A stretch of DNA of 64,000 bases, taken from the NCBI GenBank assembly GCA_004322015.1, contig SCQT01000102.1, positions 1 through 64,000 on the forward strand, given 5' to 3'. Positions 37,359-45,137 of the stretch are shown one piece after another. This DNA comes from Chitinophagaceae bacterium. Its GTDB lineage: Bacteria > Bacteroidota > Bacteroidia > Chitinophagales > Chitinophagaceae. The notes below the pieces were generated by a model. It saw nothing but the letters and a program-made list of their open reading frames with translations. It was not told the origin of the DNA and ran no database searches. Position 1 is the first letter of the stretch. Each line of letters begins with the position of its first letter. Made by a program: the position numbers and the translations under genes.

Positions 37359-37565
37359 TCTGTGATGTTCGATCTGTGATGTTCGATCTGAGATGTTCGA
37401 TCTATGATCTGTGATCTTTGGCCTTTGTTTATCGCCTTTTGCTTTTAGCCTTTCGCTTTCGGCTTTCGGCTTTCGGCTTTCGGCTTTCAGCTTTCAGCTT
37501 TCAGCTTTCAGCTTTCGGCTTTCGGCTTTCGGCTTTCGGCTTTCGGCTTTCAGCTTTCGGCTAAT
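37358..37565 (+). repeat. large heptanucleotide array, 29 units in one phase
   Basis: From the last base of the preceding stop codon the sequence keeps an unbroken 7-bp phase for about 208 bp. It begins with ATCTGTG/ATGTTCG alternation (a 14-bp super-repeat, 37358-37399) and passes through ATCTTTG, GCCTTTG, CTTTTAG and CCTTTCG. It then becomes 14 near-identical units at 37461-37558, ordered four GGCTTTC, four AGCTTTC, five GGCTTTC, one AGCTTTC. There are no unique spacers, so it is not a CRISPR. The stretch after it (37566-37826) has no gene; it holds an imperfect GCCTGC/GCAGGC inverted repeat (37691-37727). Confidence 0.9.
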
Positions 37566-37826: not shown

Positions 37827-39173
37827 ATGAAAAACATGGTACGTGTAAGGTATTTACTCCTTACTTTAGCCTTTGCTGCGTTTGCCGTCATACAGGCAAG
37901 CGCCCAGATGAAGATCGGTAATCATCCGACACAAATTCAACCCGCCTCCATTTTAGAATTAGAAAGCAATAATCAGGCTTTAAGGTTAACGCAGGGTGAT
38001 ACATTAAAGGTGAATGGCATTATTGCCACTGAGGCTACGCTCCCCGATGGGGAAACACCTTATCAGGCCGCAGAGGGTATGATCATGTATAATGAAGGAG
38101 ACAGCAGCTTTTACATGAGGATGAATGGCTGGTGGCATAAGGTGATGTCTGCAGACCAGGTAAATGCGCAATACTTTAAGTTAGGCGGAAACACCATAAG
38201 TACTTCCAGTACTTTTCTGGGACTAAAAGGCCATTCGGATTCGCTAAGAATTGGAACTGACAGTACCGCGGCAAGCATTATCATCATGCCAAATGGGGTG
38301 ATCAATATGCTGGATAGTTTACATGCTGTGTTGGCAAGGATAAACAAACTCTATTCCGGAGTGGCAAGCATTGATACGCTCACGGTCAATGATTCCTTGA
38401 ATGTGGCCGGCAATTTCATTGTAAAAAAAGATACCTCCAGGATGCTCAATTATTTTGTTATGCAGGATAGCGTAGTGATGACTAATCTCATGAAGGCCTA
38501 TGGCGCCGATACGGCCTTGTTAAGCATTGGACCCGGTGGCGTGGTGCACAGAATGAGCATTGATTCGTTGTTGGGAGCCAATAAGCCTACCATTAACGGT
38601 ATCAACAGTACTATCTTTCATTTGAAATTTGGGACAGACAGCACCCGGAAGGGTCCCTGGATAGACAGCACTTCTATGGCTAAAGATTCTATCCTGATTT
38701 TTAATATTCCGGATGCCGCTTTGGGGGTAAGAGGATTGGTGGATACAACCAGTCAGGTTTTTCAAGGTACTAAGATGTTTAGGGATTCGCTGGCGGTTGG
38801 ACAAACCACTACACCGAATTCTACCTTCCAGGTAAATGGAAACGTGAGTTTGGCGCAGAATCTTGTTTCTGCGACTTCCTATGATATGACTACTGCTGCT
38901 AATGCAGCGTATAGAACAATAGTCTTTAACGTCGCGGCTCTGACAGGACCTGTTACAGTAATCTTACCTAGTGCATCTTCCATTCCGGGTAGATTATATA
39001 CCTTTAAAAAGATCGGATCAACGGGAGATGGTCAATTAGCGGAATATGTAAAATTAAAGACAAGCTCGTCTCAGACTATAGATGGAGATGGAACTTCGTT
39101 TACGCTGTATAATAATTTTACTTCAGTGACACTTCAAGCACAAAGCGGTAATTGGGTCATAATAGGCCATTAA
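37827..39173 (+). CDS. secreted tail-fibre-like surface protein
   Basis: The 448-aa protein has a signal peptide of 26 residues (hydrophobic core, then IQASA|Q). The segment just after it, KIGNHPTQIQPASILELES, is clearly related to KLGNNPTFINPAAVLQLDS in the next protein, so the two share an N-terminal domain. The middle is beta-rich with Ser, Thr and Asn. The C-terminus (VFNVAALTGPVTVILPSASS, then LYTFKKIG, SQTIDGDGTSFTL and GNWVIIGH) resembles the tip of phage tail fibres. It is probably exported and exposed at the surface. No enzyme motif is visible. Confidence 0.7.
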   Translation: MKNMVRVRYLLLTLAFAAFAVIQASAQMKIGNHPTQIQPASILELESNNQALRLTQGDTLKVNGIIATEATLPDGETPYQAAEGMIMYNEGDSSFYMRMNGWWHKVMSADQVNAQYFKLGGNTISTSSTFLGLKGHSDSLRIGTDSTAASIIIMPNGVINMLDSLHAVLARINKLYSGVASIDTLTVNDSLNVAGNFIVKKDTSRMLNYFVMQDSVVMTNLMKAYGADTALLSIGPGGVVHRMSIDSLLGANKPTINGINSTIFHLKFGTDSTRKGPWIDSTSMAKDSILIFNIPDAALGVRGLVDTTSQVFQGTKMFRDSLAVGQTTTPNSTFQVNGNVSLAQNLVSATSYDMTTAANAAYRTIVFNVAALTGPVTVILPSASSIPGRLYTFKKIGSTGDGQLAEYVKLKTSSSQTIDGDGTSFTLYNNFTSVTLQAQSGNWVIIGH

Positions 39174-39317: not shown

Positions 39318-42170
39318 ATGCGAGAACCTGTATCAATTATATTTCTTTTCTTTTTGGCTTTAGGCTTTTCGTTTTTTTCAGTCAACGTACAGGCGCAACA
39401 GTTAAAACTGGGTAACAATCCGACTTTTATTAATCCGGCCGCAGTCCTGCAATTAGACAGCAGGAACCAGGGACTGCTTTTGACAAGGGTGGAAGACACG
39501 GCAGCCATTAATTCGTTCATTCCTCCCGATGGCATGATCATTTATTTTACAGATAGTTCCGCTCTGGGTGTTTACGGGCCGAATGCGGGCGTTTATCAAC
39601 GAAAAAACGGTGTATGGAGGCCTTTATGGGTTGGCTATGGGAACGATGGGCAGATATTGCGTACACGCGGGGCTAATTTCCTCCCGATATGGGAAAATTT
39701 ATTGCTGGATAGCTTGTATAATGTAAAAATATCTTCTGCCTCCGCCGGACAAATACTGCAATATAACGGAACTAAGTGGGTAAATACAACCGGTAGCGGC
39801 TTATATTGGTCACTCTTTGGGAATAGTGGAACGGACACTTCTGTCAATTTTTTAGGAACTACTGATGATAAACCGTTAATATTTAAAGTGAATGGCCATA
39901 AAGCCGGGTACCTTGGTACATCGGATGATAATAGTATTTCTTTAGGATATAATTCTGTAGTAATAGGTCCTTATTCCACCGCTATCGGAGGTAATGCATC
40001 GGTCACTTCAAGATATTCCACTGCCATAGGAGGCAACGCATCTGCGAACAATCAAAATAGCACTGCGTTAGGTTATAATTCCCAGTCGGTAGGCCAATCT
40101 TCCACAGCTATAGGGAGTAGTTCTTATGCAAATCCGCAATACGCCACTTCGTTAGGTAGTAATGCTTATGCCAACAATCAATATACCACTGCTTTGGGCA
40201 GTTACTCTTCCGCAACAGGCAAAAATACTACCGCCATTGGAGAAAGTGCTTATGCCTGGAACCCCAACACGCTTATTTTAGGTGATACAATTAATAATAT
40301 TAAAGTAGGCATAGGAACAAATAATCCGGCATATAATTTAGAAGTACGGGGGACAAGTGGATTTGACAGCACTTTAACCTTAGCCAGGGACCTGATAGTG
40401 AATGCAAGTTCCGGTTCAAACGGAAATATCCTCCGTTCACGCGGGACAGGGCTGTCCCCTGTATGGGAAAATCTGTTGCTGGATAGCTTGTACAATGTAC
40501 AGATATCTTCTCCTGATACCGGACAGATACTTCAGTATAACGGGAGCAAATGGATAAACTGGACACCCACCTATACTTCACTGAATGGCACAGGATATGT
40601 AAAGATGAACGGTACCACACCAACTTATATTACAGCCATACCGAATAGTGATTTAGCTAATTCCACGATTTCAGGAGTAGCTTTAGGAGGGACTTTATTT
40701 TCATTGAGTCCCGGATATGGTTTAGTCGGAAGCGCTTATAATGGTACCGTTAATCAACAGTTTAATGTAGATACTTCATCAGGGAAATTGGCTACTCAAT
40801 ATTATGTCAATACTCAGGGCTTTTTAAAAGGCAATCAAGCCATAACACTATCAGGTGATGTTACGGGCAGCGGAACTACCTCCATTCCGGTTACTCTCAA
40901 TACGGTAAATTCAAATATAGGGACATTTGGTAATTCAACCAATGTAGGGACATTTACGGTTAATGCAAAAGGCCTGATAACGGCTGCCTCCAACATGCCT
41001 ATATCTTTTCCCGTAACAAGCGTAAATGGATTTACAGGTGCTGTTTCTTTGGGGTTGAATAATCTTAACTATGTTACTATTACCTCACCAAATAGTGGAG
41101 ATATATTGCAGTATACCGGATCCGCTTGGGTAAATGCTTCAGGAGGTGGGTTGGCCTGGTTAATAGGCGGTAATGGGAATGTAACATCAAGTAATTATAT
41201 CGGCACTAATTCTTCTGCATACGTGCCGTTAATATTCAAAGTGAATGGTTTACAGGCAGGTTATCTTGGAACACCCGGCACCTCTTTAAACGTTTCTTTT
41301 GGTATTGGTTCCTCAGCCAATTTTAAATCCATTGCTATCGGAGGAAATACTATTGCCGCGCTAAATGAATCAGTTGCTTTAGGCTATTTGGCAAACTCGA
41401 ATGCTTTTCAAAGTATTGCCATAGGGGAGGCTACAACAACCGGTCAAAGTTCTGTAGTTATTGGGCAAGGTGCATCTTCCAATTCTTATCAAAGTATAGC
41501 TATCGGAGCAAGCGCAACGGCCAATGGAAGCAATAACGGTGCTATCGCAATTGGTTCTGGCTCCTCAGCGACTGCGCAGAATTCACTTGCGCTTGGCGTT
41601 AGTGCTTCCGCATCTGGACAGAATGCTACAGCTATCGGTACCGGAGCTATTGCTAATGTGGCAAATACTTTAATTTTAGGAAATGGCGCTAATGTAGGAA
41701 TTGGAACTAACACCCCCGGTACGAATAAGCTTTATGTGAATGGTAATGTTTATGTTGCTGGAAGTATTACAGCAAGTGGTGCCATTACAGGGTCATCAGA
41801 CATTCGTTTCAAAAAAAACCTCCTCGAACTTCGTCATGTTTTGGCTGCTATAGACAGTCTCCACGGTTATACCTATTTCTTCCTGACAAAAAAATTTGAG
41901 GATAAAGATTTCCCTAAAACCAAACAAATAGGTATGATAGCCCAGGAAGTAGAAAAATATTTTCCCGAATTGGTATCAACAGATAAAGAAGGATATAAAT
42001 CTTTGAACTATCCGCAGTTTACCGCCGTATTGCTGGAAGCCGTCAAAGAGCAGCAGGCGGAAATAGATTCTTTGAAAAAACAAAATGAACAATATCAACA
42101 AACGGTGAATGAGCAATTAAAAGAACTGACCGAAAGAATACAAGCATTGGAAAAAAAGGAGAAGAATTAG
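39318..42170 (+). CDS. secreted adhesin/tail-fibre-like protein with YadA-type head repeats and C-terminal S74 chaperone
   Basis: The 950-aa protein has a signal peptide of 26 residues (FFSVNVQA|Q). Next come the shared N-terminal domain and two blocks of YadA-like head repeats (STAIGGNASVTSR, STALGYNSQSVGQ and so on, about 215-320 and 665-800). Near-identical modules LLLDSLYNVxISS-x-GQILQYNG are separated by collagen-like beta segments. A peptidase S74 intramolecular chaperone starts at about 825. Its proposed Ser-Lys dyad is S827/K832 in SSDIRFKKN, with the usual five-residue spacing, so the last 120 residues may be cut off after trimer folding. A terminal coiled coil (915-948) ends it. S74 domains are best known from phage tail spikes; here the signal peptide implies a cell-surface protein. 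Confidence 0.82.
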   Translation: MREPVSIIFLFFLALGFSFFSVNVQAQQLKLGNNPTFINPAAVLQLDSRNQGLLLTRVEDTAAINSFIPPDGMIIYFTDSSALGVYGPNAGVYQRKNGVWRPLWVGYGNDGQILRTRGANFLPIWENLLLDSLYNVKISSASAGQILQYNGTKWVNTTGSGLYWSLFGNSGTDTSVNFLGTTDDKPLIFKVNGHKAGYLGTSDDNSISLGYNSVVIGPYSTAIGGNASVTSRYSTAIGGNASANNQNSTALGYNSQSVGQSSTAIGSSSYANPQYATSLGSNAYANNQYTTALGSYSSATGKNTTAIGESAYAWNPNTLILGDTINNIKVGIGTNNPAYNLEVRGTSGFDSTLTLARDLIVNASSGSNGNILRSRGTGLSPVWENLLLDSLYNVQISSPDTGQILQYNGSKWINWTPTYTSLNGTGYVKMNGTTPTYITAIPNSDLANSTISGVALGGTLFSLSPGYGLVGSAYNGTVNQQFNVDTSSGKLATQYYVNTQGFLKGNQAITLSGDVTGSGTTSIPVTLNTVNSNIGTFGNSTNVGTFTVNAKGLITAASNMPISFPVTSVNGFTGAVSLGLNNLNYVTITSPNSGDILQYTGSAWVNASGGGLAWLIGGNGNVTSSNYIGTNSSAYVPLIFKVNGLQAGYLGTPGTSLNVSFGIGSSANFKSIAIGGNTIAALNESVALGYLANSNAFQSIAIGEATTTGQSSVVIGQGASSNSYQSIAIGASATANGSNNGAIAIGSGSSATAQNSLALGVSASASGQNATAIGTGAIANVANTLILGNGANVGIGTNTPGTNKLYVNGNVYVAGSITASGAITGSSDIRFKKNLLELRHVLAAIDSLHGYTYFFLTKKFEDKDFPKTKQIGMIAQEVEKYFPELVSTDKEGYKSLNYPQFTAVLLEAVKEQQAEIDSLKKQNEQYQQTVNEQLKELTERIQALEKKEKN

Positions 42171-42433: not shown

Positions 42434-42948
42434 ATGGAAATTGCTTTGATTCAAAACAGGATCTATGAAATTCGGGGTAAGAACGTAATGATGGATTTTG
42501 ATTTGGCAGCGTTGTATGAGGTAGAAACGAAGTACCTTAAAAGAGCAGTTAGACAAAATCGTTCACGTTTCCCGGATGATTTTATGTTTGAATTGTCTCA
42601 GAGAGAATTTGAAGTTTTGAGGTGCAATTTTAGCACCTCAAAACAGCGAGGGGAACCAGGTATCCTCCCTTCGCATTTAGGGAACAAGGAGTAGCCATGC
42701 TAAGCGGTATCCTCAATTCCCCAAGGGCTGTGCAGACTAATATCACCATCATGTGTGCATTTGTGGCTATGCGGCATTTCGCCCTGACTTATCAGGAACT
42801 TGCCCAAAAGCTGAATGAATTGGAAAAGAAATATGATGGACAGTTTAATGAAGTATTTAAAGCGCTTAATCTTTTACTGGAGAAAAAAAACAGGAAAGTA
42901 AAGTGGGAAGAAAGGGAACAAATTGGGTTTAAGAAATATAAGAAATAA
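42434..42948 (+). pseudogene. ORF6N (KilA-N-associated) domain gene with frameshift
   Basis: The first frame (42434-42694) gives MEIALIQNRIYEIRGKNVMM, then DFDLAALYEVETKYLKRAVR and NRSRFPDDFMFEL, the ORF6N DNA-binding domain common in Bacteroidota accessory DNA. After STSKQRG it runs into a stop. The other frame reads FAFREQGVAMLSGILNSPRA and LTYQELAQKLNELEKKYD, the family C-terminal half with its coiled coil. Restoring one G in the G4 run at 42650-42653 rejoins both halves. A perfect 12-bp inverted repeat (42614-42625 with 42633-42644) lies just before the run. It is a recent pseudogene or a sequencing slip. Programmed frameshifting is unlikely because no slippery heptamer is evident. Confidence 0.8.
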
Positions 42949-43111
42949 TTGTGCCTGATAGGCTTAAATGCTTATGCAAAAACATTTACTACATATCTTT
43001 TCCCGCCTGTCACCTGCCGGCTTTTTGCATAAAATATGGAGATATTTATTTCCTGATGAATTAATTTGTATTCTTAAAAAGGATAGATCCCAATGGCCAT
43101 GGTTCGACAGG

Positions 43112-43183
43112 CTCACCATGACAAGAGAACTCACCATGACAAGAGGACTCACTATGACAAGAGAACTCACCATGACAAGGGAA
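43112..43183 (+). repeat. 18-bp tandem repeat (CTCACCATGACAAGAGAA)
   Basis: Four units of 18 bp with three internal substitutions begin after GGTTCGACAGG. The 18-bp period is in frame and would be read as TMTREL hexapeptides if the downstream gene started further upstream. It lies in the space between the ORF6N pseudogene and the T9SS-like cargo gene. Confidence 0.8.
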
Positions 43184-43234
43184 CTTTCCACCAGGAAGCG
43201 GGAACTATATACCATGATTTTGGGAAGGGTTAAA

Positions 43235-44992
43235 ATGGGTGAGGATACAAACCCGGAAAAACCTATTCACGATTCACGATTCACAATTCATGATTCGCGA
43301 TTCACGATTTACGCTTTACGCTTCACGCTTCACGATTTACCCTTCACCATTTACCGACCACTTCTTCCGAAACTTCAGGCATGCTTCTGCTTACTGCTTA
43401 CTGCCTCCTGCTTACTGCTTACTGCCACTGCTTCCCCTGCCCAACAACCCGTTTACATTCCTCCCACCGGCAAAGTATTCTCTCATCCCGCTGACTCGGT
43501 AGGTATCTTTGGGGATATGACGAATGACGGCAACCTGGGTTCTGCTCCCGGTTCAGTGATTAATTTTTATGGGAAAAGTTGGGAAAATGCGTCCACGGCA
43601 TTGCTTCCGGGTGTAACAGGCGCTGCAGGCTCTCCGGGCGGGCAGTTTCGTTTTTTGGGGTTGCAGTCGCAAAACCTTTTTGCAGGATATAATTTTAATG
43701 CTAAAACGGGTCCTTCTTTTCCCAATTTATCGGTCGAAAATAAATCCGGTGTCTGGCTGCAGGATTTGAATGACCTGCACGTCCGGAATAACCTGAATTT
43801 CAATAAAGGATATCTTTATCTGAATGGTTGGAATACACTGGTGGGTCAATCTGTAACAGGCTATTCAGATAAAGGTTTCGTAGTGACCGGCAGCGGTATC
43901 GGAGGCGGGAGCCTTTATCGGGAACCGCCGCAGAATGACACACTGATGACTTTTCCGGTAGGTACGGATCCGGAAAGCTATTCACCTTTTGCCATGCAAT
44001 CAGCCACGCCTTTCAGGGGTATGGTGGGCGCCACGGTTTTTGATAATGTATATCTGCATGCCACTTCAGGCGGGATGCCTGACAGCGATTATGTAATGAA
44101 GTCCTGGCAAGTCACCTCAGGCGAGGGCTCTCCGCAGACGACCGTCCTGCTCCAACACCGGGAGGCGGATGAAGGTGTTCGCTTCGCTCCGTATCGCGAC
44201 AGCAGTTATGTTTCTCTCTACCGGGTGGACAACGGAGCCTGGGATATGGATCCTTTACCCCATAAGATATTTAATCCGGGTACGCTGACTACGGGGAAAC
44301 AATATAATGATGTCTGGATGAATAACAGGCATTTCCCCGCAGGCCTGCCTCATCAAAATACCGGAACGAACAGAGACTCCGTGAACTGGTTAACAGTTTC
44401 CACTACCGCCTATAGCAATACGACATGCCCCGTAGCTGATTTCAGATTATGGGTGGCGCAGCGGTACAATTATAAATGGGTACAATTGTTCTGGAGAACT
44501 TTACGTGAACTGAACGTGATGCAGTATGAAGTGCAGAAGCGGGTGGACACCTCAGAGAATTTTCACACGATTGCCACCATACCGGCGAAGAATGTCAACG
44601 GCTTTAGCGATCACCTGCTGTATTACTATGATGCAGACAGCGCCATTTATGACGGAACGGTATATTACAGGCTGAAAATGACGAGCTCCAGCGGTTGTGT
44701 GGTTTACACCAATGTGCAGAAGGTAATATGGGGTATTTATGTTCAGGTATGGCCTGATCCAAGCCCCGGCCCGACGAATATCCACGTCTATGGTGTAAAA
44801 CATGATTTGATGATGCAGGTGATAAATACGCTGGGGCAGATCCTTGGGACTTACACCATTCCACCCAATACGGATTATATGATAGATCTGAGCAAATTGC
44901 CTGATGCCATTTACCAACTCTATTTCCGGGATCCCAAACAAAACGGTAAGATCGTAGCATCGGTTAAGGTAGTGAAGATAACGGTGAGATGA
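43235..44992 (+). CDS. secreted protein with T9SS type A-like C-terminal domain; N-terminus built on heptamer repeats
   Basis: The C-terminal 80 residues (VWPDPSPGPTNIHVYG, then INTLGQILGTYTIP and IDLSKLPDAIYQLYF) match the T9SS sorting-domain pattern, so the product should cross the outer membrane by that route. The body is beta-rich and begins VYIPPTGKVFSHPADSVGIF. The signal-peptide core (CFCLLLTASCLLLTATASPAQ) is encoded by CTGCTTA heptamers. Upstream, 43265-43355 is a second heptamer array read in frame as HDSRFTI-type repeats. ATG 43235 is the nearest in-frame ATG and gives 585 aa with a very long n-region. ATG 43214 is an alternative; the frame is open to 42968. The native start may have been displaced by repeat growth. 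Confidence 0.68.
   Translation: MGEDTNPEKPIHDSRFTIHDSRFTIYALRFTLHDLPFTIYRPLLPKLQACFCLLLTASCLLLTATASPAQQPVYIPPTGKVFSHPADSVGIFGDMTNDGNLGSAPGSVINFYGKSWENASTALLPGVTGAAGSPGGQFRFLGLQSQNLFAGYNFNAKTGPSFPNLSVENKSGVWLQDLNDLHVRNNLNFNKGYLYLNGWNTLVGQSVTGYSDKGFVVTGSGIGGGSLYREPPQNDTLMTFPVGTDPESYSPFAMQSATPFRGMVGATVFDNVYLHATSGGMPDSDYVMKSWQVTSGEGSPQTTVLLQHREADEGVRFAPYRDSSYVSLYRVDNGAWDMDPLPHKIFNPGTLTTGKQYNDVWMNNRHFPAGLPHQNTGTNRDSVNWLTVSTTAYSNTTCPVADFRLWVAQRYNYKWVQLFWRTLRELNVMQYEVQKRVDTSENFHTIATIPAKNVNGFSDHLLYYYDADSAIYDGTVYYRLKMTSSSGCVVYTNVQKVIWGIYVQVWPDPSPGPTNIHVYGVKHDLMMQVINTLGQILGTYTIPPNTDYMIDLSKLPDAIYQLYFRDPKQNGKIVASVKVVKITVR
43265..43355 (+). repeat. heptanucleotide array (ATTCACG), 13 units
   Basis: Thirteen units in exact 7-bp phase: ATTCACG twice, ATTCACA, ATTCATG, ATTCGCG, ATTCACG, ATTTACG, CTTTACG, CTTCACG twice, ATTTACC, CTTCACC, ATTTACC. 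The same word ATTCACG forms the array at 48408-48449 behind lysC. It lies inside the open frame of the cargo gene. Confidence 0.88.
43380..43428 (+). repeat. heptanucleotide array (CTGCTTA) encoding a signal-peptide core
   Basis: Seven units: CATGCTT, CTGCTTA twice, CTGCCTC, CTGCTTA twice, CTGCCAC. Because 7 is not a multiple of 3, three units are read in three frames and yield a 7-residue hydrophobic repeat (LLLTASC-like). The phase differs from the ATTCACG array upstream. Confidence 0.85.
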
Positions 44993-44993
44993 G

Positions 44994-45137
44994 GGGTTTC
45001 ATTGTTTGGGGTTTCGGGTTTTGAGTTTGAGGTTTTTTGAAACTGTTCTGGGACTATTCTGGAACCATCCTGGAACCATCCTGAAACCATTCTGAAACTA
45101 TTTTGGAACTATTCTGGAACTATTCTGAAACTTTAAT
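44994..45137 (-). repeat. composite 11-bp array, copy 2 (inverted relative to 5512-5616)
   Basis: A GGGTTTCGGG-type block (about 44994-45035) is followed by nine 11-bp units from 45039: GAAACTGTTCT, GGGACTATTCT, GGAACCATCCT twice, GAAACCATTCT, GAAACTATTTT, GGAACTATTCT twice, GAAACTTTAAT. Reverse-complemented, both blocks appear in the same order as the copy after ribBA. It begins immediately after the stop of the cargo gene and ends 16 nt before the guaA promoter element. Confidence 0.8.

Follow-up and report, generated by a model that had tools for sequence, protein, structure and literature searches.

Heptanucleotide repeat DNA in the signal-peptide position of a type IX-secreted cargo gene: probable recruitment of a dispersed repeat as an export signal

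In the 64,000-nucleotide stretch of DNA analyzed here (the window), the signal-peptide position of a conserved T9SS-type cargo gene is occupied by two in-frame heptamer arrays, the second of which reads as a hydrophobic core. Nearly all homologues of this protein carry ordinary signal peptides ahead of the same mature start, the arrays belong to a dispersed repeat family, and the same heptamer forms signal-peptide cores in other phyla. We consider it probable that the repeat was recruited as the export signal of the cargo gene. By this route, a composite dispersed intergenic repeat, made up of an ATTCACG array, a remnant of the palindrome CCGAAGTTTCGG and a CTGCTTA array, would have replaced the 5′ end of the gene, and the replaced end would now supply the Sec signal peptide of the type IX-secreted protein. 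We infer that the presequence is translated, from an ATG at 43235 or from a non-AUG start, and that it exports the protein. The features involved are as follows:

39318-42170, forward strand: gene for a fibre-like protein (YadA head repeats, S74 chaperone), which normally lies just upstream of genes of the cargo family
42434-42948, forward strand: broken ORF6N-domain gene, now two ORFs (42434-42694 and 42697-42948), between the fibre-like and cargo genes
43112-43185, forward strand: 18-bp array (CTCACCATGACAAGAGAA), LTMTRE in frame, an expansion of the GGTTCGACAGGCTCACCATGAC-type sequence at 43097-43190
43235-43237, forward strand: nearest upstream in-frame ATG, in a weak start context; translation from it would give a 69-residue presequence
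43265-43355, forward strand: array 1, 13 ATTCACG-type heptamers (TRF), with the polar in-frame reading IHDSRFT (R/H/D)
43366-43380, forward strand: linker CCGAAACTTCAGG, a degenerate copy of the dispersed palindrome, within the reading RPLLPKLQA
43381-43383, forward strand: ATG adjoining array 2 on its 5′ side, one base out of the mature-protein frame; poor start context
43387-43428, forward strand: array 2, six CTGCTTA-type heptamers forming a 21-bp block in two copies, with the hydrophobic core CLLLTASCLLLTA (TRF, hydropathy)
43429-43441, forward strand: putative end of the signal peptide, TASPA ahead of the cleavage site (homologue alignment)
43442-44992, forward strand: T9SS-type cargo protein, mature domain of 516 residues with a weak C-terminal Por_Secre_tail (homologues, codon usage)

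The initial annotation had described two heptamer arrays inside the open frame of the cargo gene, and both were recovered with TRF (ATTCACG at 43265-43337/43351; TGCTTAC/CTGCTTA at 43382-43433), with no period-7 array at a score of at least 40 in 60 dinucleotide-preserving shuffles of the window. Its count of 13 ATTCACG units stands, and its count of seven CTGCTTA units is slightly high, six being recognizable. The units are degenerate, many in array 1 carrying one mismatch, and perfect heptamer tracts in both arrays are only 16-20 bp long. The block of array 2 is (CTGCTTA)2-CTGCCYC, with a period-21 match free of mismatches over a 40-bp run (43387-43426), and the most recent duplication in the arrays is 21 bp long and frame-neutral.

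Because 7 is not divisible by 3, all three frames of CTGCTTA give the same heptapeptide, LLTAYCL, in agreement with the earlier claim that the array is hydrophobic in all three. The mean hydropathy of this peptide is 1.96, a value reached by 3.8% of heptamers. In the window, array 2 reads CLLLTAS-CLLLTAT-ASPA↓QQ (the arrow marking the cleavage site), and its best 12 residues have a hydropathy of 2.57, which is reached by 2% of random stop-free windows and lies within the range of the homologues (1.76-3.43, median 2.73, for signal peptides cut by a simple rule, with the mis-cut L040 and L049 left out). An arginine and a lysine (RPLLPKLQA) lie ahead of the hydrophobic core, which has the length usual in a Sec signal peptide (about 10-15 residues) and is followed, as in such a peptide, by a small-x-Ala site (S-P-A↓QQ) at the conserved mature start. 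Because the heptapeptide is the same in every frame, CTGCTTA could act as a core wherever it adjoins the mature domain of an exported protein, and few changes would be needed for a cleavage site, here TATASPA↓QQ.

The mature part of the gene has the appearance of an ordinary coding sequence, its 516 codons being stop-free and of normal usage (0.231 bits per codon in frame versus -0.08 and -0.04 out of frame). The product from 43442 on, 516 residues long, represents a protein family present across genomes of this bacterial family (Chitinophagaceae). Por_Secre_tail, the C-terminal sorting domain of type IX cargo, is matched by 10 of 12 homologues at E ≤ 0.1 (best E = 2.4e-9), and the window copy scores 17.6 bits, under the curated cut-off of 27. 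In about 30 homologues the mature start aligns at the same residue, A↓QxxVYIP (QQPVYIP in the window, at 43442), and nearly all of them have, at the same place, an ordinary, heptamer-free signal peptide of approximately 20-25 residues that begins with ATG, GTG or TTG. Given this alignment, the mature N-terminus is ancestral and the signal-peptide place of the window gene is repeat DNA, an exact positional match that supports the assignment of the array to the signal-peptide position. One homologue (L041) also lacks an ATG, GTG or TTG ahead of its signal peptide, where a CTG start would fit (LFRKTLHIITFIFLLLSVSFVGFA). A search of genome contigs with exact peptide patterns found no closer orthologues. 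In the same-genus genome G031 the gene is kept beside guaA (synteny), on a contig (C80) that ends within the gene and holds its last 24 codons only, 79% conserved between the two genomes.

The arrays also have relatives in intergenic DNA of the same genome. Among 30 heptamer-type arrays sampled from 0.98 Mb, 87% of which is ORF, 24 were intergenic, and both CTGCTTA and ATTCACG sites occur elsewhere in the genome. The palindrome CCGAAGTTTCGG adjoins heptamer arrays elsewhere (L071, L009, L061/L084, L082, L104 and L090), the unit run ..TTACTGCCACTGCT.. from the end of array 2 recurs at L071, and the array 2 heptamer with the same neighbours (palindrome, ..TTACTGCCACTGCTCCC) is intergenic at L071 and L009. 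The window arrays are thus members of a dispersed, mostly intergenic heptanucleotide repeat family and, because the linker palindrome and the array 2 unit run recur beside other heptamer arrays, nearly all of the presequence is dispersed-repeat DNA. In this sample just one other array lay close to where a long ORF begins (L097), and it was rejected as a second in-gene case, being a mechanical ORF extension with the real ATG after the array.

A scan of genome contigs detected CTGCTTA arrays in many phyla, and 4 of 82 exact arrays formed the core of ATG-started signal peptides of Pfam-recognized proteins:

L159: amidohydrolase, Pyrinomonadaceae
L162: carbonic anhydrase, Nitrospirota
L215: ATP synthase subunit b, Nitrospirota
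L199: cytochrome c protein, Nitrospinota

The n-region or the start comes from a second heptamer array (GTTCAAA, AAAATGG) in L215 and L159. We then searched the genomes of these four loci and examined 80 arrays, 22 of which had an in-frame ATG at most 40 codons ahead and opened into at least 80 further codons. The Pfam families of the in-frame genes were SBP_bac_11 (solute-binding protein), Peptidase_M23, Ammonium_transp, Cytochrom_C, Secretin, FliP, HlyD, OEP (TolC-like), LysM, SNase/DUF4124, Vgb lyase, LptD, ATP-synt_B (AtpF), POTRA, ApbE, DUF4390, DUF4292, TPR with a lipobox, and amidohydrolase. The genes with array signal peptides are approximately 20 and unrelated, and are found in two array-rich Nitrospinota and Nitrospirota genomes plus single Acidobacteriota and Nitrospirota genomes. 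Another 21 arrays end ahead of an ATG; the 15 usable Pfam-annotated genes behind them encode 12 cytosolic proteins and 3 inner-membrane proteins that lack a cleaved signal (L386, the AtpF array cut by a contig end, was left out). With classes assigned by us from the Pfam family name, exported or envelope proteins accounted for 15 of 19 in-frame genes versus 0 of 15 genes behind an array (Fisher p = 2e-6), for 13/16 versus 0/15 once the discovery loci were removed (p = 3e-6), and the association held when weakly assigned families were taken out of the exported class (p = 8e-4). Because the presence of a case was the reason for choosing these four genomes, the 22/80 rate is biased, and the result is this association rather than the rate. 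In less biased samples, signal peptides accounted for 4 of 82 and for 1-2 of 30 arrays; the latter, from other phyla, included one clear case (L425). L388 and L398 share the layout of the window, an FTIHYSLF stretch followed by LLTAYC. Few arrays were present in the Chitinophagaceae and in a 394-genome sample of the phylum, and those inspected in the family gave no other signal peptide.

The roughly 20 unrelated exported genes, set against the cytosolic and uncleaved products of genes behind upstream arrays, support the conversion of a repeat into a signal peptide, which the initial annotation had raised as a possibility, as a recurrent event; for the window itself it is likely, with the start codon as the weak link. 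The evidence leaves evenly poised the wider proposition that CTGCTTA arrays have given rise to signal peptides repeatedly and whatever the frame. Dispersed intergenic arrays extending into 5′ coding ends would then be kept if the product is exported and excluded if it is cytosolic, and this would have happened separately in Bacteroidota, Acidobacteriota, Nitrospirota and Nitrospinota, in some cases with the start or n-region coming from a second heptamer array.

Other features of these genomes were recorded in passing. The Nitrospinota genome of L199 (L346-L384) is unusually array-rich, with 147 CTGCTTA-type matches (≤2 mismatches) in 2.9 Mb, many directly ahead of ATGs or within signal peptides. 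In the acidobacterial genome of L187 (G791), many arrays are inverted pairs, the reverse copy first and the forward copy 40-150 bp on, as if they were the arms of hairpin elements. At L399 (567-1436, reverse strand), the signal peptide of a TPR lipoprotein (LLSLCFLLFTIHCSLFLTGC) looks to be built from a different, ATTCACT-like heptamer.

Both arrays lie inside an ORF (42968-44992) that shares the frame of the mature protein. As a single protein of 674 residues this ORF was rejected, because its upstream part (42968-43234) has no codon-usage preference for any frame; nor is the codon usage of the array stretches gene-like. There is no in-frame ATG, GTG or TTG between 43235 and 43442, in line with the earlier claim that no ATG lies between the arrays and the mature protein, the ATG at 43381 being out of frame. 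Start codons are present upstream of the mature protein in all three frames, and none of the candidates has a native-like context, that of the ATG at 43235 ranking at the 3rd percentile of training starts. The ATG at 43381 would join the mature frame on loss of one heptamer unit or gain of two.

The surroundings of the gene differ from those of most homologues. In homologues the mature start mostly lies 65-150 nt after the fibre-like gene, whereas in the window that gene is 1.27 kb upstream, the gap being filled by the ORF6N gene, apparently a pseudogene (its two ORFs are in different frames), the 18-bp array and the two heptamer arrays; the cargo gene may have lost operon coupling. The GGTTCGACAGGCTCACCATGAC-type sequence resembles a common intergenic motif of metagenome bacteria. 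The window holds two further arrays: an 11-bp array (AACTATTCTGG) at 45041-45132, between the cargo gene and guaA, and an intergenic CTTTCGG array at 37432-37562 (16 units, perfect runs up to 41 bp), about 270 bp ahead of a fibre-like gene at 37827. Judged by length, this CTTTCGG array is the one in the window with the highest likelihood of instability.

The initial annotation had offered displacement of the start codon by repeat growth as an alternative. Displacement by repeat or foreign DNA is plausible, given the 1.27 kb of repeats and broken ORF6N gene upstream, where homologues mostly have 65-150 nt. The main rival of recruitment is that the 5′ end is decaying: an insertion zone and repeat growth would have removed the start, the signal peptide and operon coupling, leaving a young pseudogene. 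The hydrophobicity of the translated array would then be incidental, CTGCTTA being hydrophobic whatever the frame. Decay keeps its place as main rival because no candidate start has a native-like context. We regard it as somewhat unlikely, in view of the 516 stop-free codons with normal usage, the conservation of the last 24 codons in the same-genus genome, and the position of the array, which is in frame and of a length that suits a signal peptide.

Two other explanations concern the behaviour and the source of the repeat. Export could be switched on and off by heptamer gain and loss, as at phase-variable contingency loci of the opa or neuO kind; the unit length is not divisible by 3, starts exist upstream in all three frames, and loss of one unit would put the ATG at 43381 in frame with the mature protein, giving MLLLTAYCLLLTATASPA↓QQ. 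This one-unit offset keeps switching on the list, and present switching, which the initial annotation had proposed, is nonetheless improbable because perfect tracts are only 16-20 bp, in degenerate units, and the clearest recent duplication is a 21-bp, in-frame one. That same duplication would fit an array that arose when leucine-rich codons slipped inside a native signal peptide, with no contribution from an intergenic repeat, signal-peptide DNA being rich in CTG, CTT and GCT codons. Such an origin is also improbable, as the same heptamer with the same neighbours is intergenic at L071 and L009, and array 1 and the linker are likewise members of dispersed repeats.

Known systems resemble recruitment of the window repeat in part. 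In the Neisseria opa genes, which encode surface proteins, CTCTT coding repeats lie in the leader peptide and slip at a frequency of ~1e-3 per cell per generation (PMC3960869, PMC3899988); the window gene likewise has a repeat not divisible by 3 in its signal-peptide coding region, but opa has a pentamer with demonstrated slippage, whereas the window has degenerate heptamers from a dispersed intergenic repeat. A locus of the opa type would be expected to have a long perfect tract that can slip and, immediately ahead of the repeat, a fixed start that is in frame in the ON state; the perfect tracts of the window are short, and there the ATG at 43235 is in frame but far and that at 43381 close but out of frame. 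In neuO of E. coli K1, AAGACTC heptanucleotide repeats (3-53 units) form a known on/off code (PMC13001214); as in the window, heptamers in the 5′ coding region are read as a heptapeptide repeat, but NeuO is an enzyme with no link to a signal peptide. The Yersinia YPAL/RU-2 element, also a dispersed repeat, partly forms the predicted signal peptide of locus YPO1552 (PMC2229807); that element is a 168-bp MITE in a new gene, whereas in the window the protein is old and conserved and a heptamer array stands in place of its signal peptide. Dispersed heptanucleotide repeats have been described as TAACTGA in Beggiatoaceae and Bacteroidetes, GGGAATC in Xanthomonas and the Geobacter elements (PMC4679880, PMC4692102, PMC2700814), and these are, like the present family, mainly intergenic arrays, often just upstream of start codons. 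As far as the parts of these reports available to us go, they discuss regulation or DNA/RNA structure and no signal-peptide coding role (PMC4679880, PMC4692102, PMC2700814). In the open-licence literature we found no prior account of dispersed heptamer arrays repeatedly used as signal peptides across phyla.

The origin and turnover of signal peptides are largely unobserved, and here the raw material is recognizable: dispersed heptamer DNA, hydrophobic as a helix in any frame, appears to have been caught in several phyla while serving conserved exported proteins as their signal peptide. CTGCTTA arrays account for some of the odd 'LLTAYCLL' N-termini in metagenome annotations, and automatic start-site calls close to such arrays are unreliable. 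With these arrays the de novo origin of export signals can be tested directly, and repeats of this kind may time and again supply the material from which signal peptides are made.
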